This document shows positions 44,791 to 63,233 of a DNA stretch of 64,000 nucleotides, piece after piece. Source of the stretch: Ktedonobacter racemifer DSM 44963 (GTDB lineage Bacteria; Chloroflexota; Ktedonobacteria; Ktedonobacterales; Ktedonobacteraceae); the NCBI RefSeq assembly GCF_000178855.1, contig NZ_ADVG01000001.1:3571481-3635480 (forward strand), in the 5' to 3' direction. The notes under the pieces are model-generated. The model saw only the letters and a program-made list of their open reading frames with translations, was not told the origin of the DNA and ran no database searches. A program made the position numbers and the translations under genes. Positions within the stretch are counted from its first letter, which is position 1. The number at the start of each line of letters is the position of its first letter.

Positions 44791-44802
44791 ATAACCTATG
44801 TT

Positions 44803-45252: not shown

Positions 45253-45338
45253 CTCTATACCTCCACTGTATAGAAAATCCTTCTTTCTACTGGTCTTCAG
45301 TATATCAGACCAATCCCAAGAAAGCCAACATACCGCAG

Positions 45339-46893: not shown

Positions 46894-46982
46894 CTTAGAG
46901 CCGCTTGGATAGCCCTCAAGGCACGTATAAAGCCAACGAAAAATACGTCATGGCGTAGTTCAACTCTCCCCATCTGCACCAC

Positions 46983-47027
46983 AAGAAGGCTAGAAGTAGA
47001 ATAGATAAACCAGCTTCTAGCCTTCTT
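46983..47027. terminator. Hairpin terminator
   Basis: Perfect 14-bp stem (46983-46996 with 47014-47027), 17-base loop, before 47212. Confidence 0.55.
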
Positions 47028-47211
47028 ATACGCATCAATGGCAAGCTGTGCTTGGAGAGGCAATTTCTATAACCAAATCAGGAGCACCAATACTCCATGA
47101 AAAGGAAGCTATAGCCTAAGGCCTGGTGGAGCTTTTCTACCTTGACCATAATAAATAAAGAGGTAGAACACCGCAAACATTGACGTTCTCCAATCCAGAA
47201 GGAGGATAGCG

Positions 47212-47646
47212 ATGACACCAGAACACCACATGAGGCTTGAAACGTTGCGTCTCTCTGTCGAGACAATCAAAACAGCACTAGAAACTGCAGAAGTGCAAGA
47301 GACAGAGGCCAACTACATCGCATTCATAAACATAGTCCGAGAGGAACTCAGGTCACTAAGTCAGTACATCCAATTTACAGAGCGCATCCAAGTTACAGAG
47401 GACATCCAAGCTACAGAGCACATCCAAGCTACAGAGCACATCCAAGCTATAAAGCACATCCAAGTTATAAAGCACATCCAAGCTATAAAGTACATCCAAG
47501 CTATAGAGCACATAAAGTACATCCAAGCTGCTATGAATGCTCAAATAACGGGAAAAACTAGCATTGAGAAACCGAAAAGAGAAGCAGCACCGCCATCGTT
47601 ATTTTGGTCAGCTCTATACAAGGAACACTTCCGGTCGACCTTATAG
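47212..47646 (+). CDS. Tandem hexapeptide-repeat protein
   Basis: 144 residues after a strong AAGGAGG site. The N-terminal 55 residues form a helical region; then about nine copies of a six-residue unit (variants of ATEHIQ, IKHIQ) made by an 18-bp tandem DNA repeat between about 47375 and 47530; then a basic tail. Codon-level identity between units suggests recent expansion. Function unknown; possibly a coiled coil. Confidence 0.6.
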   Translation: MTPEHHMRLETLRLSVETIKTALETAEVQETEANYIAFINIVREELRSLSQYIQFTERIQVTEDIQATEHIQATEHIQAIKHIQVIKHIQAIKYIQAIEHIKYIQAAMNAQITGKTSIEKPKREAAPPSLFWSALYKEHFRSTL

Positions 47647-47710
47647 CTCTGGTCTATGGCTCAGGTTGAAAAAAATCAAGCCCTCATCTAAGCTGAGCCA
47701 AATCCGGCCT

Positions 47711-47901: not shown

Positions 47902-48774
47902 CTATTCCGCGGGTATATATCCCTCGGCCTGTGCCTGAGCCTCTGACTCAAAGTAGACGATATCCAGGGGTGAGATCGACTCAGATGTGAGTTGCTGAGG
48001 CGTGCCAATAGGATAGTAACGCTTTGAACTTGCCACACCAACCAGTTTTGCAGTCTCCTGGTCGGCTGGCGGTTGCTCTTCGGTTACAATCGGTAGGGCA
48101 GCCTCTGCTAGTTGCGCGTCCTCCTCACGAGGCAGGTTAATGGCGTGAATAGTTCCTCGCGCGGTTTCAACAGTTTTCTCGCGCAGATTTCCATTCTGTT
48201 TGAGCAGGACATGCTCTTCCTCTGTCAATTCAGGCTGTTGCATACGCTTACGTAGGACAAAAATCATGGCAATCGTTGTGGCAACCAGGCCAATACCGAA
48301 GCCGATAAGCGCCCAGAAGCGTCCATCCTGTTCGCTGATCCCCTGGAATACGCGCTGGCCATACTCGTTCAGACCTTTATTGATCTTCCGGCTCTTCTTT
48401 GTCACAGAACGAGCAGCCTTCTCACTCTTCTTTGAGAGTCGCTTCGCGGTCCGATCACTAAAACGAGCCAGTTCATGCGCGGCCTGCTCGCGTCTCTTCG
48501 CGAATTCGTGAGCGGCCTGTTCGCTATATTCACCCAGGTCCTGGCGTAAATGCTCGCCGTACTTCGCCAATTGCTGGCTCTGCTTGCGGCCTCGATGACG
48601 CACAGTGGAGGCCACGCGTTCTCCGCGTGTCCGCAGCTCGTCGGCCAATACTTCCCCCCGCTGTATTATATTCTGCGCGTAGGGCGAGTTCGTCAAATCC
48701 CAGAGAGACTCACTTAACGAAGGTTTCGTTGTGGAGAACTCCTGGACCTCTTGTTCTTGTCTCACCTTTGGCAT
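47902..48774 (-). CDS. Coiled-coil membrane protein with Ada-like C-terminal domain
   Basis: 290 residues. Residues 40-140 are a highly charged helix with repeated HEFAKRREQAAHELARF-type units; a transmembrane helix follows near 152-174 (FWALIGFGIGLVATTIAMIF). The C-terminal 45 residues (VGVASSKRYYPIGTPQQLTS ... VYFESEAQAQAEGYIPAE) resemble the Ada-type metal-binding module but lack its cysteines. The gene is squeezed between element 1 and element 2, and element 2 lies 39 bases before its start. Confidence 0.7.
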   Translation of the reverse strand: MPKVRQEQEVQEFSTTKPSLSESLWDLTNSPYAQNIIQRGEVLADELRTRGERVASTVRHRGRKQSQQLAKYGEHLRQDLGEYSEQAAHEFAKRREQAAHELARFSDRTAKRLSKKSEKAARSVTKKSRKINKGLNEYGQRVFQGISEQDGRFWALIGFGIGLVATTIAMIFVLRKRMQQPELTEEEHVLLKQNGNLREKTVETARGTIHAINLPREEDAQLAEAALPIVTEEQPPADQETAKLVGVASSKRYYPIGTPQQLTSESISPLDIVYFESEAQAQAEGYIPAE

Positions 48775-48812: not shown

Positions 48813-48829
48813 TGTACACGAACAGTATA
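48813..48829. other. attL core of element 2
   Basis: TGTACACGAACAGTATA, repeated exactly at 63071-63087. It lies in the upstream region of 48774; on the minus strand a TATAAT/TATACT stretch overlaps its end, so the core may be part of that promoter. Confidence 0.75.
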
Positions 48830-48859
48830 TTATAGTCGCTGCATGTTCGTCTTCAGTGC

Positions 48860-49708
48860 TTAAACTTCATCTGTGGACATATCCCTACGCTCGCTATTGT
48901 TCGCTTCTTTGGCTGTCATTTTGGCTGTCAAAGAAGCTTCTTCTATCTTAGAATTCACTGCATACTGAAAACTTTGTACGAGGCGCGATGGGTTCGGGCG
49001 GTTCATATCTAATACGTACGCACTGTCAGAAATGTGCCATAGCGGGGAGAAGAAGAGCTTCTTAGCCATCATTTCGCCATCACCAGAAACAACGCGCCCA
49101 TATATTTTCCCAAGCATCCGCTCTGGTGCTTGTTCGCACCAGAAATTAAACACGCCGTTTACAAGCGCCAAGAAATGGTTTTTCTTATCAGGGCGAACAA
49201 TAACGGAGGCTACATAGAAATCGTATGTACCTGGCTCCTCAAACGTAAGAATATCCTTCTGGGGGTCCAGGTCTATATCGCGTATCTCACCTCGTAGAAG
49301 CTTGAAAATGGTCTCTTCCTTGAGTGGTAGCATATTAAGCGCTCCCCAGAAGTCGCGGCGATCCTCTTTGTTATAAAGCACACGGCATATCTGTGGATTG
49401 CGCTCATACCACTTTCTGACTATAGATGGATTGCCGGTCTCATCGCCGTAGACCGTGTACTCCAAATCATACATGTTGCCTACATCAGAACTTTGAATCC
49501 AGTTTGTTTCCCCTAATTGTTGTGGTGTAGCATCTCTTTTTAGCTTACTGCCTAATCGTGCTATCTCTCTAGCATCATACACACCATGCTTACTGACAGC
49601 CGTTGGATAATGCTTTGCGATTTTGCCCTCTTTAGCAAGGCGATAAAAAGTGGAAGCAGGTATTTTAAGTACTTCTATTGCTTCACTTGCGGTTAAGTAG
49701 TCCGTCAC
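48860..49708 (-). CDS. HTH (MerR/excisionase-type) protein of element 2
   Basis: 282 residues. N-terminal HTH DYLTASEAIEVLKIPASTFY/RLAKEGKI, then a mixed domain of about 200 residues (YDLEYTVYGDETGNPSIVRK, YDFYVASVIVRPDKK) with no recognised family. Near the left end, divergent from the rest of the element, as expected for a repressor or recombination directionality regulator. Its 3' end overlaps the left arm array. Confidence 0.65.
   Translation of the reverse strand: MTDYLTASEAIEVLKIPASTFYRLAKEGKIAKHYPTAVSKHGVYDAREIARLGSKLKRDATPQQLGETNWIQSSDVGNMYDLEYTVYGDETGNPSIVRKWYERNPQICRVLYNKEDRRDFWGALNMLPLKEETIFKLLRGEIRDIDLDPQKDILTFEEPGTYDFYVASVIVRPDKKNHFLALVNGVFNFWCEQAPERMLGKIYGRVVSGDGEMMAKKLFFSPLWHISDSAYVLDMNRPNPSRLVQSFQYAVNSKIEEASLTAKMTAKEANNSERRDMSTDEV
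48911..48931. repeat. Left arm-type site array of element 2
   Basis: TGGCTGTCA at 48911-48919 and 48923-48931, period 12; the same pair with the same spacing is at 62992-63012. Confidence 0.6.
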
Positions 49709-50156
49709 TGTGCTCCCTCCTGTAGGATAATTGGCTTAATCTATCCCAATTATACCACTGATTCTCTCAAAACTCTCAATTTGGTCTTAAAAACCTTGAA
49801 ACTCTCAAAAATCTCACTTATAATCTTTGGTAGAAATGGTAGTTCTCAAAAACATTTAAGACTATCGCGAGATATTCGCAAGCACGTTACCAACTGAATA
49901 GGCTATCTATAGCCACTGTATGCACTATCCAGCGAGCCACACCTGAGTAGCTGCAAAGCGGCAAAAAGGCATTAACGGGGCGGAGGCTGCGCGTACTACC
50001 TGGACGAGTGATTGACTAGGTACAGCAGGAGACCTGGAAAACTGCATATAGCGTCCTTTCAAGGTTTACCCCTGGCTTTCGCCTTCTCAAGCTAGAGGCA
50101 AGCCTTGGAAGTCAAGGTTGGGTCAATCCATTTCAGCCGAGAAGGGAGTCTCTTTT
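49709..50156. promoter_or_regulatory. Divergent control region with ACTCTCAA repeats
   Basis: Between the HTH gene and the rightward genes. Direct repeats of the type ACTCTCAAA occur at about 49762-49800 and 49855, close to the HTH gene start, and could be operators for that protein. No gene seen. Confidence 0.45.
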
Positions 50157-50438
50157 ATGGCAGATAGCACGGCCCCAAACGCGACCAATGCGAAGTACAG
50201 TTTCTCGACCAGCACCATTAGTGCTGAAGACTACAAAGCTGTCCAGGCTGAGCGCGAAGAGTTCGCCAAGAAGCAGCTGGCCGCGAACAACGAGTTCATG
50301 TTTCAGCACTACGCCCGTATTCTGCGCGCCCTGGATATCTCCTGGGAGCGCGTCACCAAGGCCAATGTCATTCTGGAACGCAAGACACGACGCGAAGAGG
50401 CGAAGAAACGACGCGAAACGTTACGCGTTCGTAAGTAG
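50157..50438 (+). CDS. Small basic helical protein
   Basis: 93 residues from ATG 50157 with AAGGGAG upstream. A disordered N-terminus, then a long helix (AEDYKAVQAEREEFAKKQLA) ending in a very basic tail (KTRREEAKKRRETLRVRK). Possibly nucleic-acid binding. No family recognised. Confidence 0.6.
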   Translation: MADSTAPNATNAKYSFSTSTISAEDYKAVQAEREEFAKKQLAANNEFMFQHYARILRALDISWERVTKANVILERKTRREEAKKRRETLRVRK

Positions 50439-50599
50439 TTTTTGTAGCGCATCCTGCGGTGAAAAATCGTGAGCAGGCCCTAAGCAAGCCACGATCTTTT
50501 CATCGCTTTTTACACTCGTTTTTGTCGGCTAGTACCCGGCTACAACACGGCTAGTTTGATTTTGTTGCCAACTTTTTTCACAAACATGGAGGTGGTTTC

Positions 50600-51549
50600 T
50601 TGGCAATTCTCAGTGCCATCAAATCAGGAATAGGGAAGTTCAATCCCTTCGCTAAGCAAGGATCGTACCCCTCGACGAACGTAAGCGGAGGGTCTACCAT
50701 CCAGCGGCAAGACAGCGAAAAAATTGTTGAAGGTGAAGTGGTCATGTCTTACAGTGAGATGGGGCCAGAAGAGATTCAGCGGCGCAACTATGCCATCCTG
50801 GCAGAAGTCACCCACGACGCGCCCGCCCATGATCGTATCCTTGATATCATCAAGGAAATCTGGCGCATTGTGGGGCCGCTGGCGAAGTCTTCTACTACCT
50901 GGCGCACTTCTTACCCATCAGCGAAAAGCAAAACATCTGGAACCAGGTGCTTTTATGGGGCGTCACGCTCCTGATCGAAGTCCCTTTTATGATCGCCACC
51001 TATGATCTCTCTAGCCGCAAAAAGCGTGCAGCGGAGGCGAGAGAGCGCGGACGAGAGACCAAAGAGCATGACACCTTTGGCGCGGTTGTGGCCTGGGTGT
51101 GTATGGCAGTGGTCAACATCACGGGTCAGGTCGCCTTCCTGGCTCTAGTCACGAACGTAGCGCATACGAGCGATGGTGCGAACTGGATTTACTTTTTCAT
51201 CATCGTGCGTGTGCTGGGTGTGCTCCTGGGTGATGCCTACATTGCGTTTTTCCTGCTCCCACCCGAGACCACTATCACCCGTGTGGTTCGCACTATGCGC
51301 GCCCAACAAGAGGGCATGAAGGTGCTGGGTGAAGCAGCGATGGAACGCAAGCGCGAAGAATCCAAGTTGATGCTGGATATGCAGCGCGACCAGAACACTA
51401 TCAACCGCGAAAAGAGCGAAGCCAACTTTATGAACCAGTTTGCGCAGATGAATATGGAGAATGCTCTAGAACAGCAACGGGCATTCTTACGGTCACAACG
51501 CAAGCGGGAACGTGAGGACGGCTATGATCCAAATACGGGGGGTCTCTAA
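50600..51549 (+). pseudogene. Three-helix membrane protein, frameshifted
   Basis: Starts at TTG 50600 with GGAGGTGG upstream. The first frame reads to IVGPLA near 50884; the sensible continuation (EVFYYLAHFLPISEKQNIWN) is in another frame that runs to 51549, so one base seems lost near 50884. The C-terminal part has helices LLWGVTLLIEVPFMIATY, VVAWVCMAVVNITGQVAFLA, IYFFIIVRVLGVLLGDAYIA and a charged helical tail (KREESKLMLDMQRDQNTI). GTG 50947 could express the second part alone. Possibly a mobile-element membrane component. Confidence 0.65.
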
Positions 51550-51552
51550 GCC

Positions 51553-52119
51553 ATGCTAGAGAGACGCTATAGCCACTACAAACAAGAAGATGTGTGGGCC
51601 ACGCTCTACCAGCTTCAAAGCGCCCTCGGGGTCCAGGTGCATGATGGCACCGTCCACGGCAATAGCGTCTCTCTGAGCCGTGGCGGCGTGGTCTATCAAG
51701 CGGTCATCTTAGCGCGGTCCAGTTATTGGTATGCCAACTCCTTGAACTGTGTGGAACGCTGGCAACATCAGATCACCTGCGTTGTGGCAGGGACACATGA
51801 TTCATGCCTGGAGGTGCCTGTCCTGGCTATCGATACTATGCACTGGTACGAGCCAAAGACCATTCGTTTAAAAGGAGACACCCTCCAGCCATTCAAGCTC
51901 GACGCAGCTGGCCGGGCCGCTGATCGCTTTGAGCAATGGCGCAAGACCCAGTACGGCCATAACATCTTGCTTGGCGCGTTGATGTGTGGCCGCCCTGATG
52001 CCTTTGAGCGCCTGCACACCTTACCACCCTCAACGCAGCGGCGTATTCACGCGAAGGTCAAGCGCCTCCACTTACGGCGACCAGGGCGGCCGCTCGCCGT
52101 TCTTGAAGACAAAAAATAA
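51553..52119 (+). CDS. Hypothetical protein of element 2
   Basis: 188 residues, 3 bases after the membrane-protein gene. N-terminal helical RRYSHYKQEDVWATLYQLQS, beta-rich middle (AVILARSSYWYANSLNCVER, HQITCVVAGTHDSCLEVPVL), basic C-terminus. No family recognised. Confidence 0.6.
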   Translation: MLERRYSHYKQEDVWATLYQLQSALGVQVHDGTVHGNSVSLSRGGVVYQAVILARSSYWYANSLNCVERWQHQITCVVAGTHDSCLEVPVLAIDTMHWYEPKTIRLKGDTLQPFKLDAAGRAADRFEQWRKTQYGHNILLGALMCGRPDAFERLHTLPPSTQRRIHAKVKRLHLRRPGRPLAVLEDKK

Positions 52120-52184
52120 AGGCGGCTCTCTGCACTGTAGTTTGGCGACTTCTGTCAGAGGGTCCCGCCTGTGGAAAAACTTTG

Positions 52185-52217
52185 CCCCACATGGACAAGT
52201 ATACCATGTGGGGTTTT
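52185..52217 (+). terminator. Intrinsic terminator
   Basis: Perfect 10-bp stem CCCCACATGG/CCATGTGGGG, 9-base loop, then TTTT; it closes the 50157-52119 gene group. Confidence 0.85.
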
Positions 52218-52236
52218 CTGTGGAAAGGATCTCCAC

Positions 52237-52818
52237 ATGCAGAAAACACTTCTCACGCTCTTGCTTATCCTGGTTGCAGGCGGATGTGTCTACGCCTGGG
52301 CAGGTACACAGCAAAACACCATTCCAACCACCTTTGCAGCATCGCACACCGTTACTGTATCGACCTCGGACACCATCACGAGGTCACCTACCATCTCGGC
52401 GGCGTTCATTGACCGCGTGCTTATGGCGGCGGGTTCACCTGCACAGGGCATCGGGCAAACCATGTATGACCAGGGCGTGGCCTACGGGATTGATCCCGTG
52501 TTCGCACTGGCCTTTTTCCATCACGAAAGCACCTTCGGCCTACGCGGCGTCTCAGTGGTCACGCTGAGCATTGGCAATATCCGCTGTACCGAGGGCTGGC
52601 GATGTGACCCGAGCGGCGGCTATCGGGCCTACTCTTCCTGGCGGGCCAGTGTCGCCGACTGGTACACCCTCATGAAGACGGTCTATATCGCAGACGGCCG
52701 GACCACGGTTGCAACCATCATTCCTAAGTATGCCCCCCAAAGGGACAACAACGACGAAGCGGCCTATATCCAGAGTGTCATGGCTGACGTGATCCGCTGG
52801 CGAGGAGGGCAAATATAG
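52237..52818 (+). CDS. Secreted cell-wall hydrolase (glucosaminidase/lysozyme-like)
   Basis: 193 residues from ATG 52237 (AAAGGAT upstream). Signal sequence with possible lipobox (LLLILVAGGC). The domain YDQGVAYGIDPVFALAFFHH/ESTFG has the Glu of glucosaminidase/transglycosylase folds, followed by IGNIRCTEGWRCDPSGGYRA, YSSWRASVADWYTLM. Probably opens peptidoglycan for transfer or exit of the element; lysozyme-like proteins are common in such elements. 3 bases before the next gene. Confidence 0.8.
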   Translation: MQKTLLTLLLILVAGGCVYAWAGTQQNTIPTTFAASHTVTVSTSDTITRSPTISAAFIDRVLMAAGSPAQGIGQTMYDQGVAYGIDPVFALAFFHHESTFGLRGVSVVTLSIGNIRCTEGWRCDPSGGYRAYSSWRASVADWYTLMKTVYIADGRTTVATIIPKYAPQRDNNDEAAYIQSVMADVIRWRGGQI

Positions 52819-52821
52819 AAT

Positions 52822-53082
52822 ATGGCTCGTACATCACGACGTACCCCCTCTCGTCGCCCTGGTCACAGCAATGCACAGGCCACCATTTCTTATCGCAAGC
52901 CCTTTGACCTCATGACATCTGAGGAGGGGCAACGCTGGCTAGAAGGCTTACGCGACCAGTGGGTGTGGCAAGTTTTTTTGCGCGAAGGATATCCTGGGTC
53001 TACCTCTCATAGTGCCACCCCACAAGAAGGCAACCCTAAGGCTGCCTTCTCATCTTGTCTCTTGACCGAAGCACGACGCTAG
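52822..53082 (+). CDS. Hypothetical small basic protein
   Basis: 86 residues; basic N-terminus (ARTSRRTPSRRPGHSN) then DLMTSEEGQRWLEGLRDQWV. Immediately after the hydrolase gene. Overlaps the convergent anti-sigma gene by 4 bases. Function unknown. Confidence 0.5.
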   Translation: MARTSRRTPSRRPGHSNAQATISYRKPFDLMTSEEGQRWLEGLRDQWVWQVFLREGYPGSTSHSATPQEGNPKAAFSSCLLTEARR

Positions 53083-54113
53083 GACACTTGGAAATTGAAT
53101 GTCCACGTGCTGGGTTTTGCGTCCTTCGGCGTATCTGGGTTCCCTTTAGGGATGATGTCCTTGATGGTGAGAGACCAGTTTTTACTCTTCTCGATCGGGA
53201 TATATCGAGCGTAGATAACTCGTTTAAATTCAGGCATGCCTGACATCTCGTAGTTTGACGCCTCAGAGCTACTCAGTGTGGCTTGAGTGCGGAAACCTCG
53301 CTTGCCCTGATAGCCCCTGATGAAGAACTCGGTGCCAGAGCGAGCGTGGACCATCTTGTCGAGCGTGAGCGTCACCCCATTTGAGGTGGCCTGCAATCCG
53401 TTGAACTGTATCACCTTCCCCGGATGAAATGGGGCGGTGAAGGCAATGGTTGCCCTCTCATGACCAATAGAGATATCGAGCAGCAGGTCAAGTTGCCGTG
53501 GATTGCCAGTAATACTGGTAGCGTCATAGCTCCACGCCTGCGCAGACTCGCTGGTAATGCCACCAATGTATCCAGGCAACGTCTGCCCTTGCTTGGTTCG
53601 TAGCTGTGGTACATCAATCGGAGGCGTATTCTTCGACGTTGAGCGCGTTGAAAAGCCAATAGAGATCTCAACCTGATCCGCATATACCCCTTCAAGGGTC
53701 ACCTCGACACCTCCAATCGTCCGTGATTGGTGCCGCAGAGTATAGTCGCTGTTATGGATGACCTCTGATGGAGGATTTCCAAAACTCATCAAACCTAATA
53801 CCTCACGTACCTGTGGCGAGAGCGCGAAGGTAGAGGCACTGGCAAGGGTCACAACTACGAACAGAAGCGCGATGGCGGTTCCCATACTCAATGAGAAACG
53901 GTGGGCTGGCGCGAAATGGCGTGGAAGCGCGGCTGTGCGCTTCGTCAGCGTCTCTTCTAGGTAGCGAGCCTTCGTCGTTCTCCAGCTCAGCCAGAGTGGG
54001 GGCACTGGGTGCGTATACGCTGTATGCAGGTCGCTGAGCAGTGTGCGAGTCACCTGATCGTGCTCCTGCTCCAGGAGATCAGAATACTCTTGCTCTATAT
54101 CAAATTTCTTCAT
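53079..54113 (-). CDS. Membrane anti-sigma-like protein (DUF4179-type)
   Basis: 344 residues. The cytoplasmic N-terminus (about 72 residues) starts with a helix (FDIEQEYSDLLEQEHDQVTR); a transmembrane helix (LSMGTAIALLFVVVTLASAS) follows, and then a beta-rich extracellular part (IGGVEVTLEGVYADQVEISI). This resembles DUF4179 anti-sigma proteins. It overlaps the upstream sigma gene by 14 bases. Both lie inside element 2, an uncommon location. Confidence 0.75.
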   Translation of the reverse strand: MKKFDIEQEYSDLLEQEHDQVTRTLLSDLHTAYTHPVPPLWLSWRTTKARYLEETLTKRTAALPRHFAPAHRFSLSMGTAIALLFVVVTLASASTFALSPQVREVLGLMSFGNPPSEVIHNSDYTLRHQSRTIGGVEVTLEGVYADQVEISIGFSTRSTSKNTPPIDVPQLRTKQGQTLPGYIGGITSESAQAWSYDATSITGNPRQLDLLLDISIGHERATIAFTAPFHPGKVIQFNGLQATSNGVTLTLDKMVHARSGTEFFIRGYQGKRGFRTQATLSSSEASNYEMSGMPEFKRVIYARYIPIEKSKNWSLTIKDIIPKGNPDTPKDAKPSTWTFNFQVS

Positions 54114-54705
54114 CTTGACGGTAGCCCTCCTTCAGTGTGTGGAGAATACGCGAAAGTTGTTTCTTGACAGCCGCCTGGCTCTTGCCAAGCACAGCAGCGA
54201 TCTCGGATGAACGTAAGCCCGCAGCGAAGCGCAACGCAAGCATCTCGCGCTGCGAGTGTTTTAAACGCACAAGAAGATCTTCAACCCGCTTGAGTCGTTC
54301 CTGAGCCAGAAGCGCTCCCTCAGGGCCCAACTCGTCTTTGGAATGCAGTATTTCCGGCAACAAATCCCAGGAGACCGTGCCACGCTCCTTGCGCTGTTTC
54401 TGGCGGATAGTATAGAGCGCAATACGAAAAAGCCAGGCAATAAAGGGAATGCCACGTAACTGATAGCGCGGCAACGCACGCAACGCGTGCAGAAAGGTCT
54501 GCTGCGTCAAATCCGCTGCATCTTCCTCGCTATGCACGTGCGTTCGCGTGTAGCAATATACCTGATACGCATACCGCTCATAAAGGGGAGCAAAGGCCTC
54601 CGGATTGGCCTTCGCCGCCTCTATCAGCTCAACCTCCCGCTTCTTCTCCTCATCGAGTTCGATGGAAGGTTGGAAAAGCGATGGCAAGACAAGCAATATA
54701 TTCAC
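54100..54705 (-). CDS. ECF-type sigma factor carried by element 2
   Basis: 201 residues. Region 2: SEEDAADLTQQTFLHALRAL, GIPFIAWLFRIALYTIRQKQ; region 4: LKHSQREMLALRFAAGLRSS, EIAAVLGKSQAAVKKQLSR. Paired with the 53079 gene. It may control element genes or host cell-surface genes. Confidence 0.92.
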   Translation of the reverse strand: MNILLVLPSLFQPSIELDEEKKREVELIEAAKANPEAFAPLYERYAYQVYCYTRTHVHSEEDAADLTQQTFLHALRALPRYQLRGIPFIAWLFRIALYTIRQKQRKERGTVSWDLLPEILHSKDELGPEGALLAQERLKRVEDLLVRLKHSQREMLALRFAAGLRSSEIAAVLGKSQAAVKKQLSRILHTLKEGYRQDEEI

Positions 54706-54920
54706 ATTCCAGGTCCTCTAACTTGTTCTATGGTTTTTCTTGACCTTTACAAAGGTCTTTCATCGCGATGTCATAGATATATGTCGTTTTTCGCCAAACG
54801 GGGACATTTTTTGTGGTGAGTAGTCACAAGGTGACTGCTCAGGTCCCTGCTTGTGGCAGACGTCTCAGCACCCAAGTGCTTCGCGAGTTTCTACAGTTTA
54901 AGCGCCTGAGCGCATGGTAG
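54706..54920. other. Upstream region of the sigma gene
   Basis: A coding-like run (CGRRLSTQVLREFLQFKRL) ends near 54920. Otherwise nothing recognised. Confidence 0.35.
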
Positions 54921-55163
54921 CCGATCGTACCATCTCTCTATTGCCTGGACTCCGCTTCACGCAAAAAAACTTGCCACACCCGCGACCAGTTGGCGTGCAA
55001 GCAGCAACGAGAGCGGGCCTATCTCGACCGGAGGGCGGCCCGCGGCACACACACACCTACAGACGAAGCCTATGAAGTTGATCAGGTGTTAGAGGATGAC
55101 CTACTGGCACTTCTCGACCGGCTGATGAGCGAGACCAGGAGGGAGACCGTAAGCCATGAATGA
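54921..55163 (+). pseudogene. 3' part of a Cys-containing small gene
   Basis: Open frame without ATG after a TAG at 54918: CLDSASRKKTCHTRDQLACK, QQRERAYLDRRAARG, then an acidic helix (VDQVLEDDLLALLDRLMSE). The Cys/His spacing resembles small FCS/CGNR-like zinc fingers. Its TGA (55161-55163) overlaps the start of the next gene (55156), as in an operon. The 5' end may be frameshifted from the coding-like run ending at 54920. Confidence 0.5.
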
Positions 55164-55380
55164 ACATCTATGGCAACACTATCAAGGCCTCTTAGAGCAG
55201 GCCCCCATACAAGCGCAACGCCATTGTGTTAGCTGCTGGTACAAAAAAACGTCAGCAGGCCCGTTCCCTGCTGACTGGTCTTCTTCGCTGTGTCCCTCGT
55301 GTGCTCAGCAGATCAAACAGAGTGCCTGCCCTGTGAAGCTATCCACGTCAATTTACCTGCATAATGCAAGGGAGGTCTAG
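55156..55380 (+). CDS. Small zinc-ribbon protein of element 2
   Basis: 74 residues with CVSCW and CPSCAQQ pairs. Overlaps the preceding fragment by 8 bases and leaves only 4 bases to the next start. Function unknown. Confidence 0.65.
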   Translation: MNEHLWQHYQGLLEQAPIQAQRHCVSCWYKKTSAGPFPADWSSSLCPSCAQQIKQSACPVKLSTSIYLHNAREV

Positions 55381-55384
55381 CACT

Positions 55385-55597
55385 ATGATGCTTCTTGTCA
55401 TTCTTGCGCTGGTCGTTGTGGGCATTCTTCTGCTTTGCCAACCGCGACAGCAAGACGAACGGCCGTTACGCGATATTCCTTTGACAGCAACCCCGGAGGA
55501 GTGGGAAGAATTGGAAGAGGATGGAGAGGTCACCATCTTGAATGATCGCGACTCTCGCACACCAACTATTCAGTACAAACGCTATCGAGACGAGTAG
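55385..55597 (+). CDS. Small single-helix membrane protein
   Basis: 70 residues from ATG 55385 with GGGAGGT upstream. N-terminal helix MMLLVILALVVVGILLLCQP, then an acidic region (TPEEWEELEEDGEVTIL). Function unknown. Confidence 0.65.
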   Translation: MMLLVILALVVVGILLLCQPRQQDERPLRDIPLTATPEEWEELEEDGEVTILNDRDSRTPTIQYKRYRDE

Positions 55598-55614
55598 GAA
55601 ACGTTGGTATAACC

Positions 55615-55646
55615 AGCCCTTATAGCACTTGCGATAAGGGCTTTTC
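55615..55646 (+). terminator. Intrinsic terminator
   Basis: 9-bp stem AGCCCTTAT/ATAAGGGCT, 10-base loop, then TTTT, 18 bases after the stop at 55597. Confidence 0.85.
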
Positions 55647-55720
55647 CTTCACAACGGTGTTTCCCCTGATGGTTTACCTGACTACCCGGGATATTAAACG
55701 GCATCTTAATAGCCATTCCC

Positions 55721-56101
55721 CTAATTGTTTACCTGGTTCCCTTCCCTGTTGTGGTTGTTCTGATAGTAGCCCCAGTTATTTCCCTCATTTCCGCTGTTGT
55801 TCTGATTAACTCCCTCATAATAGGGGTTATTACTGTTGTAGTCGTTTGTCTGTATGTTTTGAATGGTCACCTGGTAATTTTTACGATTCGAGAAATTCGA
55901 GGGCGTGTACGCATAGCCATCCTTTGTTGCATTGCGTGTCACTGCTAGGGAAGATGTTGTTTCTTTGGGGCTCATAGCGACTGTTGCCCGCTTTGAAGAG
56001 GCAAACGCAATTGAAGGCATACCTGATAACAACGCCATTGAGATTATCAGGCTTGTAACAATGAGGATCACCCTCTTTTTTTTGAAAGAAGAAACCATCA
56101 C
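55721..56101 (-). CDS. Secreted Asn-rich protein, short paralog
   Basis: 126 residues. Signal peptide (RVILIVTSLIISMALLSGMP), a region like the 57379 protein (TVAMSPKETTSSLAVTRNAT, SNFSNRKNYQV) and an Asn/Gly/Tyr-rich tail (YYEGVNQNNSGNEGNNWGYY). Its upstream region is split by the IS5 element. Function unknown, probably cell-surface. Confidence 0.65.
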   Translation of the reverse strand: MMVSSFKKKRVILIVTSLIISMALLSGMPSIAFASSKRATVAMSPKETTSSLAVTRNATKDGYAYTPSNFSNRKNYQVTIQNIQTNDYNSNNPYYEGVNQNNSGNEGNNWGYYQNNHNREGNQVNN

Positions 56102-56164
56102 ACTCTCCTACCTTTCTGGCGCTGGACAAACATCTTTCCTTTTCGTATTTCTTGAAATACGTAC

Positions 56165-57109
56165 TAAGAGCTTATCCGAAAACTGTGGTTGGTACAATGA
56201 AAAGAAAACCAAGCGAGGTGAAACAAGCATATGGCTCGAACCCATCCATGGAAAGTCAGCGATGAATTGTGGGAACACGTCTGTCCTCTGATTCCTGTTC
56301 GCCTTCCTCACCCCAAGGGAGGACGACCAGCCGCCGATGATCGAGCGATGTTTGAAGCCATCGTCTATATTCTGCGAACGGGCATTCAATGGAATGCCTT
56401 GCCCCGTGAAATGGGTGCCAGTTCTACCGTCTATGACCGGTTCCGTCAATGGGAAGCGGAAGCGCGTCTTCGCTCGCCTGTGGAAAGCAGGTCTGCACCT
56501 CTACGACGAGTTGCAAGGCATTGGCTGGGACTGGCAGAGCCTGGATAGCTCGACGAGCAAAGCCCCTTTTGCCCAAGCCGCGGTCGGACCCGCTCCCACC
56601 GATCGCGGCAAGCAGGGAACCCGCGCGGAGCATTCTCTGTGATCGCCGAGGTCTGCCCTTGGCATTGGTCATTGATGGGGCCAATCGCCATGATATGAAA
56701 CTGGTCGCTGCGACGTTGGAGCATCACGCGATTGCACGCCCTGAACCCACCATTGAGCATCCCCAGCATCTGTGCCTGGATGCTGGCTATGACTATGATG
56801 TCATCTACAGCCTGCTCTATGAGGAGGGGTATGAGCCGCATGTTCGCCTTAATCGCCATAACCATGCGTGGTATTGGCAAGCGCTTTCGCAACAAGGAGA
56901 GACCCAGGAGCCTGCCAACGCTCTGGAAACGACCAAAGTCCCCAGGCGCTGGGTGGTCGAGCGCCTTTTCTCCTGGCTCAATCGCTGGCGTCGAATCATC
57001 ATTCGTTGGGAAAAGCTGGACCGCACCTATGATGCCTTCCTGCGTTTGGCCTGTGCTCTCATGTGTTTCCATCATTGTGAACGTCTCTCAGTTTTCGGAT
57101 AAGTTCTTA
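56165..57109 (+). mobile_element. IS5-family insertion sequence (IS427/IS1031-like)
   Basis: Ends TAAGAGCTTATCCGAAAACTG (left, 56165-56185) and its near-perfect inverse at 57089-57109. Encodes a broken transposase. Inserted in the upstream region of the 55721 gene. Confidence 0.85.
56231..57102 (+). pseudogene. IS5-family transposase in three frames
   Basis: Frame 1: DELWEHVCPLIPVRLPHPKG, GIQWNALPREMGASSTVYDR. The protein continues in a second frame (LYDELQGIGWDWQSLDSST, first Asp) and after about 56630 in a third (SILCDRRGLPLALVIDGANR, second Asp; WVVERLFSWLNRWRRI, Glu). The first shift could be programmed; the second looks like a 1-base insertion, so the enzyme is probably dead. Confidence 0.85.
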
Positions 57110-57378
57110 CTGGGTTCGCCAGGATAACCTCTCACTATGATCAGTGTACCTTCTTCAAAAACTGATCCATTTGCACCTGTAAACGACATGGAGGATTTGC
57201 GCCATAGTCTCAGTGGCTCACCAAAAAAGAGACAGGAAAACGTTCCCGTCTCTTTTTTCAGTTTAGATGCACAGCCGATCGGCTGGCGTGATATCCCGCC
57301 AGGTTGACGTGCGCGACACGTTTTCCCTTACCGTCTTGCCAGTCCTCAAAGCAGGTGCAATACAGGCTCTTCCATGTT
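57110..57378. other. Displaced upstream region of the 55721 gene
   Basis: 57115-57200 resembles 58240-58325 upstream of the paralog (ATAACCTCTC, CCATTTGCACCTGTAAAC versus TCATTTGAACCTGTAAAC), so genes and control regions were duplicated together. Confidence 0.5.
57223..57258. terminator. Hairpin terminator
   Basis: 16-bp stem (one mismatch) AAAAAAGAGACAGGAA with its complement, AACG loop, T6 end. Confidence 0.75.
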
Positions 57379-58161
57379 CTAACGGTGTGTTGTCAGTTCC
57401 AAAAGAGGCACGCCGGGGAGCAAGTTGTACGTGTTATGATTTTCCTGATGCCTCACGGTGTTTCCCTGATAATTCCCTTTGCCTCCCAGACTATGAAGGA
57501 GGTCGGGGAGCAAGTTGTACGTGTTATGATTTTCCTGATAGCCAATCGTGTTCCCTTGATTGTTCACCGTGCTTCCCGCAGCATTAAATTGCTTTCCAAT
57601 AGCGTTTGCCTGATTGTTGACCTGGTTCCCGCTGTTGCTGGCGTTGTCCTGATTGTTGCCCACGTTATAACCCTGGTTCCCGCTGTTGCCCTGGTCAACG
57701 CCCCAGTAGTAGCTGTTATTGTTGTTGCTGCCGTTTCCTCGGCGGATCACTTGTCTGTTGATCTGGGTTCCGATAATACTTTTCTGATTGTTGACCTGGT
57801 CTCCGCTGTTGCTGGCATTGTCCTGATTGTTGCCCGCATTATATCCCCGATTTCCGCTATTGCCCTGGTCAACGCCCCAGTAGTAGCTGTTATTACTGTT
57901 GTTGCTGTTCCCCTCTTTGTATTGATTGTTCACCTGATAATTGAGACGATTTGGGAACTTCGAGAAGGGGTACCCATGGGCACCCTTTATTGCGTTGCGT
58001 GTCTTTGCCAGAGAAGATGGTGCTCCTTTGGGGCTCTTGGCGACTGTTGCCTGCCTGGAAGCAGCGAACGCCGTTGATGAGATACCCCACAAAAGCAACA
58101 GTGAGATTACCAGGCTTGCAACAATGGGGAGCCTCCTCTTTTTTATGAAAAAATAAGACAC
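57379..58161 (-). CDS. Secreted Asn/Gly-rich repeat protein, long paralog
   Basis: 260 residues. Signal peptide (LPIVASLVISLLLLWGISST), a domain shared with the 55721 protein, then two copies of a block with NSYYWGVDQGNSGN and GNNQDNASNSG, and two copies of YQENHNTYNLLP-type units. Highly polar and repetitive, like surface or matrix proteins. No family recognised; a similar DNA repeat underlies the blocks. Confidence 0.65.
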   Translation of the reverse strand: MSYFFIKKRRLPIVASLVISLLLLWGISSTAFAASRQATVAKSPKGAPSSLAKTRNAIKGAHGYPFSKFPNRLNYQVNNQYKEGNSNNSNNSYYWGVDQGNSGNRGYNAGNNQDNASNSGDQVNNQKSIIGTQINRQVIRRGNGSNNNNSYYWGVDQGNSGNQGYNVGNNQDNASNSGNQVNNQANAIGKQFNAAGSTVNNQGNTIGYQENHNTYNLLPDLLHSLGGKGNYQGNTVRHQENHNTYNLLPGVPLLELTTHR

Positions 58162-58491
58162 TATCTACTCCTACCTTGCACCACTCAAAAAGCATTCCTT
58201 TTCTTTCCGAAGATGCACGTATGTACCAGATTAGTCGGGCAAATAACCTCTCGTACCAGTATAACGTCCTCAAAAACAGATTCATTTGAACCTGTAAACA
58301 AAGTGGAGAGGAAAGTACACCATGTTCCCAGTTACGTGCCAAATGAGACTGAGAAAAACGTTCCTGTTTTCCTAAAGAACTTGGGGGCGCGATCTAGTAA
58401 CACGCGCCGTTCTTTTTATCCATCCTTCTAGCACCTGCTAGAAGGACTTTGTCATTTGTAGAGAAAGAAAAGTCTGAGGAGGATATAACAC
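58162..58491. other. Control region between the Asn-rich gene and the ATPase gene
   Basis: Contains the duplicated upstream segment of the Asn-rich genes and a terminator (58374-58416); a second short hairpin CCTTCTAGCA/TGCTAGAAGG is at 58424-58446. Confidence 0.45.
58374..58416. terminator. Hairpin terminator
   Basis: AAAGAAC...GGCGCG with CGCGCC...GTTCTTT, followed by TTAT. Confidence 0.6.
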
Positions 58492-60072
58492 TTGGATGAA
58501 GAACTTGTTGCGGCATTTGCAAAGATGCTTCAAGCGGATGGGTTGCCAGGGGTGCTGGTCTCGAACCGCCCCTGGCGTGAACTGTCAGCGGATGCCATAG
58601 CTCACCTGGTCAGCACACGGACGCCCATCTATGTGCGACACGGCCAGCTGGTGCGCATCCAACGCAAGGAAGACGACACCCCTTGTATTGAAGCGCTCAC
58701 GGAAACCACCTTAAAGGGTATGCTCGCACGGACCATGAACTTTGTCAAGGTCACGGTCAAAGGCCCCATGCATTGCCCTCCACCTGACGCCATGGTGAAA
58801 GATATTCTGACTCTGGGAAATTGGCTGTTCCCGCCCCTAGATAGCATCATTGAATTTCCTGTCATTCGTTCAGATGGAACGCTCATCACCACCCCCGGCT
58901 ATGATGAGCAGACACGGCTCTACTACGCGCCCGTGCCAACACTGCATATCCCGCCTATCCCTGAGCATCCCACAGATGACGACATTGTGAGCGCCCTGGT
59001 CCTCATTGAAGAGGTGATAGGACAATTCCCCTTTGAGAACGATGCCAGTTATGCCAACACGGTCGCGCTCCTGCTCACGCCTCTTATTCGTCACGCCATT
59101 GATGGACACGTCCCGCTGGCCCTCATCGATGCCACACGACCAGGTACAGGCAAAAGCCTCTTAGCTGAGACCGTGGCCCTGATCGCTACTGGACGTAAGG
59201 CCTCCATGATGACGGCTCCCTATGACGATAACGAGTGGCGCAAGCGGATCGCCTCTACCCTGGCCGAGGGCGCAACCATCATCACCATTGACAACATCAA
59301 GGCCCGTCTTCAGTCAGCGAGCCTGGATTCAGCGCTCACGTCTCACACAGTCAAGGAACGCATCCTGGGTGAGAGTCGCAACGGCGTCTATGCTCAATGC
59401 GCGACCTGGATGGCGACGGGAAACAATATCCAGTTAGGCGGCGACCTGCCGCGGCGGTGCTACTGGATACGCATGGACGCCCGCACGGCCAAGCCCTGGA
59501 CGCGTGGCGGCTTCAAGCATGATCTCGAGACCTGGATACCCACCCACCGGGGCGAGATTATCACGGCCCTGCTCACCCTGGTACGTGCCTGGTACGATGC
59601 CGGAAAGCCTCTCATGAGCGAGCCTATCAAGATGGGCAGCTTCCAGGCCTGGGTCAACACCATTGGCGGCATCCTTGAGCATGGCTCAGTCAATGACTTC
59701 TTAGGCAATGCTCAGGCCCTGCAAGAGCAAGACGAAGACGCCCTCCAGTGGGCGGCCTTTCTCCGTGCCTGGCTTGCGCATTATCACCTGAACCAGATTC
59801 TGGCGTCAGTGCTTGTCAAGGATATCAAGGCAGGCTCGACGCTTGACGAGATAGAGAGCACCCTGGTAGGCCTCTACAATGCCTTGCCAGATGACTTGAC
59901 CGATATCCAGAAAGGCGACTTCAAACGGCGGCTAGGCAAGGCCCTCTCTTACCGGGTTGGCACCCAGTTTGATGAAAGTGGCCTGCACCTGGTCAAAGGG
60001 GAGCCAGATAAACGCAGTGGCGCGGTGTACTGGTCTGTCGCCTTACCCGATTCTGTAGAAGTTGTGCTGTAG
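58492..60072 (+). CDS. AAA+ replication ATPase (helicase-like) of element 2
   Basis: 526 residues, TTG start after GAGGAGG at 58476-58482. An N-terminal domain (1-170) of unknown fold is followed by an ATPase: Walker A RPGTGKS (216-222), Walker B IITIDN (263-268), sensor-like MATGNN (307-312) and an Arg pair DLPRR (319-322). It resembles helicase-like ATPases found beside primases in plasmids and satellites. It precedes the primase gene, so they probably act together at the iterons. Confidence 0.75.
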   Translation: MDEELVAAFAKMLQADGLPGVLVSNRPWRELSADAIAHLVSTRTPIYVRHGQLVRIQRKEDDTPCIEALTETTLKGMLARTMNFVKVTVKGPMHCPPPDAMVKDILTLGNWLFPPLDSIIEFPVIRSDGTLITTPGYDEQTRLYYAPVPTLHIPPIPEHPTDDDIVSALVLIEEVIGQFPFENDASYANTVALLLTPLIRHAIDGHVPLALIDATRPGTGKSLLAETVALIATGRKASMMTAPYDDNEWRKRIASTLAEGATIITIDNIKARLQSASLDSALTSHTVKERILGESRNGVYAQCATWMATGNNIQLGGDLPRRCYWIRMDARTAKPWTRGGFKHDLETWIPTHRGEIITALLTLVRAWYDAGKPLMSEPIKMGSFQAWVNTIGGILEHGSVNDFLGNAQALQEQDEDALQWAAFLRAWLAHYHLNQILASVLVKDIKAGSTLDEIESTLVGLYNALPDDLTDIQKGDFKRRLGKALSYRVGTQFDESGLHLVKGEPDKRSGAVYWSVALPDSVEVVL

Positions 60073-60105
60073 GGAGAGGGTCAGAAGGAACGTGCTCTCG
60101 CACGG

Positions 60106-60170
60106 TTTTTTAGGGAAAGGAAAACGATGTGGGTTGTCACACACAGCCATCGTTTTCTTTCCCTAAAAAG
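60106..60170 (+). terminator. Intrinsic terminator after the ATPase gene
   Basis: 22-bp stem with one bulge (60107-60129 with 60148-60169), flanked by T and A runs. Confidence 0.8.
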
Positions 60171-60178
60171 AGAAATCC

Positions 60179-60339
60179 GCAGGTTTGCAGGTTTCGCAGG
60201 TTTGTATTCCCCAAAAGGATCAAAAAAAGAGGTCTCACTACCCTTTCCTAACGCATGAGAAGCGCGGCGAGAGGGTATTTTTCTGCACTGTACACACGCC
60301 ACACCGACGGGAACCAAACCTGCAAACCTGCAAACCTGC
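60179..60339. repeat. Iteron cluster upstream of the primase gene
   Basis: GCAGGTTT at 60179, 60187 and 60196, and three inverted copies AAACCTGC at 60316, 60324 and 60332. The facing triplets bracket about 110 bases just before the primase start: a candidate replication origin. Confidence 0.65.
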
Positions 60340-60367
60340 AAGCCAGATACAAGGAAATGAGAAGACG

Positions 60368-61321
60368 ATGCTTGCAATCACGAGCTACATGGAGACCTAC
60401 CAGGCCCTGTTCGTGGGCAGGTCAGACGACTACGCTATCCAACTGAGTAGCGGCCGCTACCGACGCGTGGGTAAGCCGCTCACCAAATCAGAAGTCTTTG
60501 ACCACCTGATCGGCCGCCATACGTGCGGCACCTATGTGATGGACACCCAGGGCCGCTGTCGTTTCGCGGTGATCGACGCCGACATGGAAGACGGCCTGGC
60601 CCGACTCTGGCAGATTCAAGACCAACTGGCAACGCAAGGGATTGTCTCCTACGTGGAGCAGTCCCGACGCGGCGGCCACCTCTGGGTGTTCTTCACTTTT
60701 CCAGTGCCAGCCTCCCAGGCTCGCGCCTGGCTCCTGCCTTTCTGCCCCTCCGATATGGAGTTCTATCCCAAGCAGGACGAGGGCAAGGGCTACGGTTCCC
60801 TGATCCGGCTTCCCCTGGGTATCCATCGCAAGAGTAAGCAACGCTATCCCTTCGTTGAGCGCGGCGCGGCCGGACTGGTCACACTGAGCGCACCCGAGGA
60901 ACAGCGCATAGCCTGGCTGGCCTCTATCCAACGCATGGAGGTTCCCCTGGTGAAGAGACCAGCGGCGGCCACGACCATGCACAGACACACTCCAACATCG
61001 TTTTCCCCATCCAACCCAGGCAGAGCCAGCGGCCCATCCCCTATACGCGAATGGAACGCAAGTCAGGACTACTACAAGCTGATTAGTCGCCATGTCACCC
61101 TGAATGAAAAGGGCGTGGGTAAATGTCCCTTTGGAGACCACCACACGGGCGGTGAAGACACCCAGGCCTCATTCAAGGTCTATGAACCTGGCGTCCCTGG
61201 TGGGTACTGCTGGTACTGCTACACCTGGCAGCGCGGCGGCTCGCTCTTTGACTTTCTCAAGTACTACTATCACCTGAGCAATCAGGAGTTATGGGAACGC
61301 ATTCAAGCAGAAGACATCTAA
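60368..61321 (+). CDS. Primase-polymerase with C-terminal CHC2-like zinc finger
   Basis: 317 residues from ATG 60368; the frame is open from 60185 but that part covers the iterons. Archaeo-eukaryotic primase core: metal-binding FAVIDADM (Asp70, Asp72), SRRGGHLWVFF with His104, EFYPK and IRLPLGIHRK (TOTE/Cas4-primase-like pattern). After a Pro/Ser linker comes a zinc finger: C253, H258/H259, C281, C284 (CPFGDHH ... CWYCYTW), as in DnaG CHC2 domains, plus GSLFDFLKYYY. Starts replication of the element, probably at the flanking iterons. Confidence 0.85.
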   Translation: MLAITSYMETYQALFVGRSDDYAIQLSSGRYRRVGKPLTKSEVFDHLIGRHTCGTYVMDTQGRCRFAVIDADMEDGLARLWQIQDQLATQGIVSYVEQSRRGGHLWVFFTFPVPASQARAWLLPFCPSDMEFYPKQDEGKGYGSLIRLPLGIHRKSKQRYPFVERGAAGLVTLSAPEEQRIAWLASIQRMEVPLVKRPAAATTMHRHTPTSFSPSNPGRASGPSPIREWNASQDYYKLISRHVTLNEKGVGKCPFGDHHTGGEDTQASFKVYEPGVPGGYCWYCYTWQRGGSLFDFLKYYYHLSNQELWERIQAEDI

Positions 61322-61325
61322 TCCC

Positions 61326-61461
61326 GCCTCTAGAGCGGTTCGCAGGTTTCAAAAATTTACGAGTCGGCCTCTAGAGCGGTTCGCAGGTTTAGCGCAGGTT
61401 TCATGCAGGCTTTCCCTTCTTGTGAAGCCGCTCTACAAGCGGCTCGCAGGTTTGCAGGTTT
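61326..61461. repeat. Iteron cluster downstream of the primase gene
   Basis: GCAGGTTT at 61342, 61383, 61394, 61446 and 61454 plus a variant GCAGGCTT at 61405. A 24-bp unit containing GCCTCTAGAGCGGTTC plus an iteron is repeated at 61326-61349 and 61367-61390. Confidence 0.65.
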
Positions 61462-61527
61462 CAAACCCACTGATCCGAGGAAGAATTTTTGAGGCAACAT
61501 AGCAAGCCATGAAAAGGACGAGGTGAG

Positions 61528-61773
61528 ATGAAACGGAGAACGCTAACGGCTCAAGATGAGCCACCCCACCCACCAATACAGCTTCAACCCCTGCTCATAG
61601 ATGTTGATACGGTAGCGGTCGTTCTGAGCATGGGACGAACAAAGGTCTACGAACTCATAGCCAGGGAAGAACTCCCTGTCTTGCGATTTGGGAAAGCGGT
61701 ACGGGTCTACCTGCCAGAGCTACAGGCCTGGATCGTGCGACGGATACAAAGCGAACGCGATTTGATAGCGTAA
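61528..61773 (+). CDS. Excisionase-family HTH protein
   Basis: 81 residues. Winged-helix HTH: LLIDVDTVAVVLSMGRTKVY, ELIAREELPVLRFGKAVRV, LPELQAWI. Located 60 bases before the integrase gene on the same strand, the usual xis-int order. GAGGTGAG upstream. Confidence 0.87.
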   Translation: MKRRTLTAQDEPPHPPIQLQPLLIDVDTVAVVLSMGRTKVYELIAREELPVLRFGKAVRVYLPELQAWIVRRIQSERDLIA

Positions 61774-61833
61774 CTTCTAGCGGCTGGCATCTTCAAGGGT
61801 GCCAGCCTCTCTTCTGAGAAAGGGACAAAGACC

Positions 61834-62991
61834 ATGCCGAAACGAAGAGGTCATGGCGAAGGCTCCGTTTATCCTCGCAAAGATGGGCGGTTCGCTGGCT
61901 ATATTCGCCTGGAGGGTGGGAAAAAGAAGTACTTCTATGGCAACACTCGTAAAGAAGTACAGGACAAAGTACGGGCAGCTCTGAATGAGAAAGAGCGGGG
62001 CACACTGGCAACTGGCCCGAACCCGCTTTTGAAAGATTATCTCCCTGAATGGTTAGAGACGGTGTGCAAGCCTCCCTATCGCGCTCCACAGACCTATATA
62101 TCCTACCGTTCAGTTATAAGTAAGCATCTGATACCCGAAATAGGACACCTCAAGATTCGGAACCTCACGGCCCGCCATATCCAAAATTTGTACACGAAAA
62201 AAATAAGAGAGGGTGCAAAACCTGCAACAATTGAGCAGATGCAAAAAGTGCTCTCAGGTTCGCTAAATAGCGCCCTGCAATGGGAAATGGTTTCAACAAA
62301 CGTTGCGAGTAAAATAACTACTCTCAAAGGCGAGCAACGCGAAATATTACCACTGACAGAAGAAGAAGCAAAGGTTTTACTAGAAACTGCTAGGGGACAC
62401 CGATTAGAAGGGATGATTCTGCTAGGTGTAACTCTCGGGTTAAGGCTCGGTGAAATCACTGCTTTGAAGTGGAAAAACATTGATCTTGATGCGCATACAT
62501 TGACAGTCAAGCTTACAGTGAGCCACGTTCCCTCCATGAGCCACGTTGAGAAAGACCCTAAAACACGAGCCAGTAGAAGGAAAATAGACCTTCCTAACGC
62601 TGTCGTTCAAACCTTGCGGCAACATTATGACGAGCAAAAGGCAGAAGCTGAAAAGATGGGGCTCTCATTGAGCGAATGGAACCCCAAAGGACTTGTCTTC
62701 CTCAATAAGCGAAGAGGCTACATGTATGCAGGGCAAACACGTAAGGAGTTCTACGCTATTCTGGCCCAAGCAGGTTTACCAAAGATGCACTTTCACGATC
62801 TCCGGCATAGTGCCGCAACCATTCTTCTCGTAAAAGGGGTGCATCCGAAGATGGTACAGGAGCTTTTAGGGCATTCCTCTATTGTCATGACCATGAACAT
62901 TTACTCCCACGTCATGCCATCAATGAGAAAAGAAGTGGCTGGCATTATGGATACCATTTTTAGTGAGAAAAAAGAGGAGGATAAGCCCTAA
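61834..62991 (+). CDS. Tyrosine integrase of element 2
   Basis: 385 residues, complete. N-terminal arm-binding domain (GSVYPRKDGRFAGYIRLEGG, KKYFYGNTRKEVQDKVR), core-binding domain, and catalytic domain with Arg (LGLRLGEITALKW), HDLRHSAAT, LGHSSIVMTMNIYSHV. The stop codon TAA (62989-62991) touches the first arm-type repeat at 62992. Intact, so the element may still excise. Confidence 0.95.
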   Translation: MPKRRGHGEGSVYPRKDGRFAGYIRLEGGKKKYFYGNTRKEVQDKVRAALNEKERGTLATGPNPLLKDYLPEWLETVCKPPYRAPQTYISYRSVISKHLIPEIGHLKIRNLTARHIQNLYTKKIREGAKPATIEQMQKVLSGSLNSALQWEMVSTNVASKITTLKGEQREILPLTEEEAKVLLETARGHRLEGMILLGVTLGLRLGEITALKWKNIDLDAHTLTVKLTVSHVPSMSHVEKDPKTRASRRKIDLPNAVVQTLRQHYDEQKAEAEKMGLSLSEWNPKGLVFLNKRRGYMYAGQTRKEFYAILAQAGLPKMHFHDLRHSAATILLVKGVHPKMVQELLGHSSIVMTMNIYSHVMPSMRKEVAGIMDTIFSEKKEEDKP

Positions 62992-63012
62992 TGGCTGTCA
63001 ATTTGGCTGTCA
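62992..63012. repeat. Right arm-type site array of element 2
   Basis: TGGCTGTCA at 62992-63000 and 63004-63012, period 12, same as at 48911-48931. Confidence 0.6.
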
Positions 63013-63070
63013 TGAGTGGCTATGCGGGAAGTGAGGGGGCTTGGGAGGCTGAATACTATACTGCTCGACA

Positions 63071-63087
63071 TGTACACGAACAGTATA
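63071..63087. other. attR core of element 2
   Basis: TGTACACGAACAGTATA, copy of 48813-48829. Here it is part of a longer inverted repeat AATACTATACTG ... CAGTATAGTATT (63051-63091). Confidence 0.75.
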
Positions 63088-63233
63088 GTATTTCAGTTGG
63101 AAAGCTCGAAAGTCAAGCAAGGGAGTTGCTTGCAAGATCTAACAATCGCAGACCTGGCGCACCTGGCGTATAACCAGGGAAGGAGAAAACCTTGTTTAGG
63201 GCAAAAATATTGTTTTATGAGGAGAGGGGTGTG

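Follow-up and report, generated by a model that had tools for sequence, protein, structure and literature searches.

The 64,000-nucleotide stretch of Ktedonobacter racemifer SOSP1-21 DNA analysed here (the window) carries, between positions 48813 and 63087, a site-specific integrative element that very probably behaves as an integrated plasmid. The host genome comprises 13,661,586 bases in 10 contigs and has been described for strain SOSP1-21T (PMC3236041). The combination that an earlier, sequence-only reading had seen in a Chloroflexota setting, integration together with autonomous replication and without transfer genes, is supported by empty integration sites in sister species and by the homology of the AAA protein, the primase and the iterons to a characterised actinobacterial plasmid replicon.

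The 17-bp direct repeat that had been taken to bound the block, TGTACACGAACAGTATA, is an exact pair and is not scattered, since the 13.66-Mb genome contains only these two exact copies, both at the ends of the element. Two 17-mer matches with two mismatches were rejected as att sites, both representing one duplicated coding gene. Moreover, the empty site that the same reading expected in relatives was found, through a left-flank search in the genus and alignment to the window, in two sister species, SOSP1-85 (G034) and G033, where window position 48833 joins 63071 with a single 21-bp copy; because of this fusion, the moving unit can be set at 14,258 bp. The attB is an imperfect palindrome, AATACTCTGTACACGAACAGTATAGTATT, and the element has inserted upstream of a minus-strand gene on its left (47902-48774), 38 bp from the start codon. 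A tRNA target was rejected for this element, since no tRNA gene lies at the repeat or anywhere in the 64-kb window; the direct repeats of two other elements (L053 and L069) resemble tRNA 3' ends by eye. In the flank, window positions 42266-47690 are also mostly absent at the same locus in both sister species, which points to a further insertion or deletion just left of the element.

Each end of the element also bears one pair of TGGCTGTCA repeats with a 12-bp period, and these four copies are the only ones in the 64 kb. Paired repeats, each with a sequence of its own, are found at both ends in seven of the ten other elements tested (8/11 with the window element included), against 0/493 pairs of internal segments in the controls. 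The TGGCTGTCA pairs are most simply explained as likely integrase arm sites, and the arm sites are independent support for the boundaries of the element. The tyrosine integrase, which would bind the paired arm sites at each end, recombines the 21-bp core with a single site in the chromosome, as the empty sites in relatives show, and together with Xis it should be able to excise the element as a 14-kb circle.

Table 1. Features of the integrative element in window coordinates.
Feature	Position	Strand	Remarks
attL core	48813..48833	+	17-bp direct repeat at 48813-48829; 21 bp with 1 mismatch
HTH + GNAT-fold protein, 282 aa	48860..49708	-	conserved, probable regulator; AlphaFold model (pLDDT 86) matches GNAT acetyltransferases
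Left arm-type sites	48910..48930	+	two TGGCTGTCA, 12 bp apart
Small conserved ORF, 93 aa	50157..50438	+	~60% identity in the two closest elements
Multi-TM + coiled-coil membrane-protein gene	about 50600..51549	+	conserved; frameshifted near 50880 in this copy
Conserved ORF, 188 aa	51553..52119	+	conserved in relatives
Secreted or membrane-anchored lytic transglycosylase / glucosaminidase-like hydrolase	52237..52818	+	weak profile matches: Pfam 0.014, NCBIfam 7e-6
Small conserved gene	52822..52960	+	interrupted by the adjoining insertion; 102 aa in the SOSP1-85 element
Later insertion	52961..54981	.	27-bp terminal inverted repeats, 9-bp target duplication GCGACCAGT, no transposase
DUF4179 protein	53079-54113		inside the 52961-54981 insertion
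ECF sigma	54100-54705		inside the 52961-54981 insertion
Two small conserved ORFs, 74 + 77 aa	55156..55597	+	
Asn/Gly-rich secreted-type repeat protein	55721..56101	-	cargo
IS5-family insertion	56165..57109	+	later addition
Asn/Gly-rich secreted-type repeat protein	57379..58161	-	cargo
AAA+ RepA-like initiator/helicase, 526 aa	58492..60072	+	PHROG 1e-67
Iterons, 3 x GCAGGTTT (+) and 3 x (-)	60179..60344	.	
AEP primase-polymerase, C-terminal zinc finger, 317 aa	60368..61321	+	Pfam AEP-TOTE 8e-25; PDB 7nqf, CRISPR-associated PrimPol, 4e-17
Iterons, 5 x GCAGGTTT	61342..61461	+	
Excisionase (Xis), 81 aa	61528..61773	+	TIGR01764 9e-9
Tyrosine integrase, 385 aa, intact	61834..62991	+	Pfam 3e-29, PHROG 3e-73
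Right arm-type sites	62992..63012	+	two TGGCTGTCA, 12 bp apart
attR core	63071..63091	+	second copy of the direct repeat; 17-bp match at 63071-63087

The components initially recognised in the block, namely Xis, an intact Int, an AEP primase, an AAA+ ATPase, iterons and a cell-wall hydrolase, are all present (Table 1). The view of the 14.3-kb block as one element holds in that it is a bounded unit, but 52961-54981 and 56165-57109 are later insertions, exposed by the SOSP1-85 element, whose alignment to the window spans 48880-63051; without them the element measures ~11.3 kb. The ECF sigma/anti-sigma pair was rejected as cargo of the element proper because it lies inside the first of these insertions, which is bounded by terminal inverted repeats. 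The repeat end of that insertion has 20 copies in the genome at two or fewer mismatches and 0 in a reversed control, some of them as facing pairs ~2 kb apart, and such non-autonomous, transposon-like units are possibly mobile sigma/anti-sigma cassettes. The gene for the membrane protein is broken by a frameshift, whether natural or due to misassembly. With two transposon insertions and this frameshift, the window copy looks partly decayed and may be immobile now. Pfam searches on 13 members of the membrane-protein family gave nothing coherent, and an identity as DUF2637/Spd was rejected (hhalign probability 1%). The lytic transglycosylase is kept in most relatives of the element, and the Asn/Gly-rich repeat proteins, with two copies in the window and three in SOSP1-85, form an array of variable copy number. 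No structured RNAs were found, and a defence function was rejected, the defence profiles matching only a generic HTH (mad1) and PrimPol.

In the replication module, the AAA+ protein matches profiles of phage and plasmid helicase-type proteins (PHROG) and, within the plasmid collection, shows 29% identity over 90% of its length to RepA of the Streptomyces plasmid pWTY27 and 35% identity over 66% of its length to the homologue in pCM32; the AAA domain is detected in Pfam at E=0.04 only, and sequence search found no solved structure for the protein. The primase belongs to the TOTE/CRISPR-PrimPol branch and not to the PF09250 type found in pWTY27, and it could have a role in repair or in the control of DNA uptake instead of replication. 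The octamer GCAGGTTT is present in 11 copies within 502 bp flanking the primase gene (three plus, three minus, then five plus), and in simulated sequence of the same composition (n=500) the maximum for any octamer was 7 copies, with a mean of 2.2. This layout is kept, with small differences, in the other elements that encode this AAA protein (L045, L048, L049 and L065); in the SOSP1-85 element (L047) nine iterons now read GCAGATTT at unchanged positions, a concerted switch that would be expected if one co-evolving protein reads the sites.

In pWTY27, a 300-bp iteron region makes up the basic replication locus together with RepA and the primase-polymerase RepB, and RepA binds its own iterons in vitro (PMC3583192). 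By homology with that system, replication of the excised circle is expected to start at an iteron origin surrounding the primase gene, where the AAA+ RepA-like protein would bind the GCAGGTTT iterons and open the DNA and the AEP enzyme would prime or copy, as RepA and RepB do. Autonomous replication would be confirmed by an extrachromosomal copy, which is missing from most genome assemblies.

The element belongs to a family that, among 301 genomes sampled across the phylum, has primase relatives in Ktedonobacterales only. Such relatives occur in 19 of the 47 Ktedonobacteria genomes and at seven places in K. racemifer, and the family members are bounded by direct repeats of their own. The closest are a second K. 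racemifer copy (L045) and the SOSP1-85 element (L047), which share an integration site that is different from that of the window element and is empty in G033. The AAA-primase-iteron module, Xis, Int, HTH-GNAT protein and hydrolase are common to these two elements and to those of Dictyobacter vulcani and D. arantiisoli; integration site and cargo differ from those of the window element, and many Ktedonobacterales elements have another initiator. The recurring order, drawn from elements with defined ends plus further loci, is a divergent HTH-GNAT gene at the left end, lytic transglycosylase, small proteins, membrane protein, AEP primase, initiator, Xis and Int. Against this fixed core the initiator varies, being an AAA protein with iterons, a pT181-type protein or a RepSA/G2P-like protein; the pT181-type has a predicted RepDE fold (AlphaFold pLDDT 83; Foldseek E 8e-9 to 4cij; Pfam Rep_trans 0.0015).

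The Ktedonobacterales family keeps a constant core of primase, membrane protein, hydrolase, Xis and Int, around which initiator and target site are swapped. Between L045 and L047, Int is 95.6% identical and the flanks 94-96%, while Xis, primase and AAA protein are 86-89% identical, and the L045 primase and AAA protein are closer to those of the window element (90-93%). Since these replication genes and Xis have diverged more than Int and the flanks, with L045 nearer to the window element, replication modules have been exchanged between elements. Moreover, because the core stays the same where initiators, iterons and target sites change, the co-change of Rep and iterons and the exchange of modules are directly testable. 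This coherent family appears to be new and previously unremarked, no description having been found in the open-access literature. Two further observations concern the surroundings of family members. On a Dictyobacter arantiisoli contig (L099 and L065), several element modules lie back to back, with a ResIII helicase, a DNA methylase, a Prim-Pol-AAA protein and a family A DNA polymerase with a TubC docking domain followed by two Xis-Int pairs, and the flank of the SOSP1-85 element (L047:18008-18175) contains a palindromic repeat of ~170 bp that three Ktedonobacter genomes each carry in dozens of copies.

Transfer functions have been sought in the element with Pfam, PHROGs and NCBIfam-type profiles, and these revealed neither an ATPase of the FtsK or T4SS type nor a relaxase nor any phage structural gene, in agreement with the initial impression that relaxase, FtsK-like and capsid genes are absent. 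The nearest PF01580 domain is that of a 1126-aa FtsK 117 kb away, none being inside the element, and there is no FtsK-domain locus near intact element copies in K. racemifer and no P-loop translocase in relatives with defined ends. Near the other primases, the search for translocases returned only ordinary host flank genes and one HerA-like gene, which in G003 (L072) lies ~4 kb away from a distant primase. Away from the elements, K. racemifer has tandem FtsK-domain genes with frames of 828 and 379 aa (G000:C9:2471674 and C9:2472790), and similar pairs exist in about nine relatives. Since no known DNA-transfer motor is encoded, movement between cells must occur in trans, through a helper element, transduction, DNA uptake or hyphal contact, or by an unrecognised mechanism. 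It seems quite unlikely that the membrane protein, the lytic transglycosylase and the HTH-GNAT protein of the core form a motor-less apparatus for transfer or spread, perhaps borrowing the septal FtsK of the mycelial host; if true, this would be a third way of moving double-stranded DNA besides T4SS and TraB.

Mobilisation in trans gives rise to a possible though rather unlikely alternative, an IME-like element whose origin of transfer is recognised by a conjugative helper. Sister elements encode the pT181-type Rep_trans protein, a fold that is common to plasmid initiators and is also found in NicK/MobT relaxases. Nevertheless, the window element lacks a Rep_trans-type protein and has no recognised relaxase or nicking protein, by which integrative mobilizable elements are defined.

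A decayed AICE or ICE, with a recent conjugative ancestor whose transfer gene was lost in this copy, is doubtful. The insertions and the frameshift of the window copy and its AICE-like replication and integration module would fit such a history, as would an uncultivated Ktedonobacteraceae contig (L089) in which an FtsK/HerA-type ATPase and a winged-HTH membrane protein accompany a 945-aa Prim-Pol-AAA protein that is a relative of the window AAA protein, an arrangement which suggests that AICE-like elements may exist in the same host family. However, the translocase is absent from all other members examined although their core genes are intact, so that its loss would have been ancient and shared rather than a decay of this copy. 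Of the earlier description as a stripped AICE-like element, the likeness stands, the order Rep, Prim-Pol, Xis and Int matching that of pCM32, but a single AICE deprived of its transfer gene does not describe the element, because all Ktedonobacteraceae relatives examined lack a Tra ATPase.

The resemblance to phage satellites, also raised at the outset, gained no support, and a satellite induced and packaged by a helper phage is very unlikely. The layout, 14 kb with integrase, primase and hydrolase, is satellite-like, and the AAA protein has phage relatives, but PHROGs and Pfam revealed no packaging, capsid-remodelling, helper-hijacking, phage-regulator or structural gene. Capsid-remodelling, packaging and hijacking genes are absent from some phage satellites as well. 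Viral contigs yielded relatives of neither the primase nor the AAA protein, phage records give weak or domain-level matches only, and the nearest replication relatives whose biology is known belong to plasmids and to integrating, plasmid-like elements. Finally, the idea that the repeats pair by chance around unrelated genes, or that the region was rearranged rather than inserted, has only the transposon-rich genome in its favour and is already refuted by the precise empty sites in two species, the homologous element at another site and the arm sites at both ends.

An integrated plasmid, the preferred reading, can be set beside three known systems. The AICE pCM32 of Saccharopolyspora endophytica (14.6 kb) is of similar size and has Prim-Pol, a homologous Rep, a small HTH/Xis protein and an integrase as neighbours, but it encodes a 735-aa Zot-domain/Tra-type ATPase that the window element and its relatives lack, and the Prim-Pol families and the host phyla differ. 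pWTY27 shares with the window element a homologous RepA, an adjacent primase-polymerase and octamer iterons in inverted arrangement, whereas its iteron is GTGGGAAC and it carries traA/traB and DUF2637, to which the window membrane protein has no detectable homology. Among the defining features of AICEs, the integrase with att direct repeats is present, as is a Rep and/or Prim-Pol module (RepA homologue, AEP primase and iterons, with a primase family other than PF09250); an FtsK/SpoIIIE-type Tra (PF01580) is absent and the host belongs to Chloroflexota, not to Actinomycetales. Thus, the element is not an AICE by definition, because it has no Tra and its host is not an actinobacterium, but in function it corresponds to that half of an AICE which serves integration and replication.

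The third system is the class of the cryptic integrated AEP elements (class iii of Kazlauskas et al. 2018, PMC5862659), which, like the window element, are bounded by direct repeats (att), encode an AEP primase and lack conjugation and phage genes. The window element differs in a primase that matches AEP-TOTE and CRISPR PrimPol and in belonging to a family with a conserved core and interchangeable initiators; the name Ktedonobacter does not occur in the text of that study (PMC5862659). A primase of the PrimPol-PV1 supergroup is a further mark of the class, and the profile that fits the window primase best is AEP-TOTE / CRISPR PrimPol. The element fits these cryptic integrated elements as a new coherent family, and AICE-type replication, with RepA, iterons and a primase, is now placed in mycelial Chloroflexota, which are actinomycete-like in growth habit.
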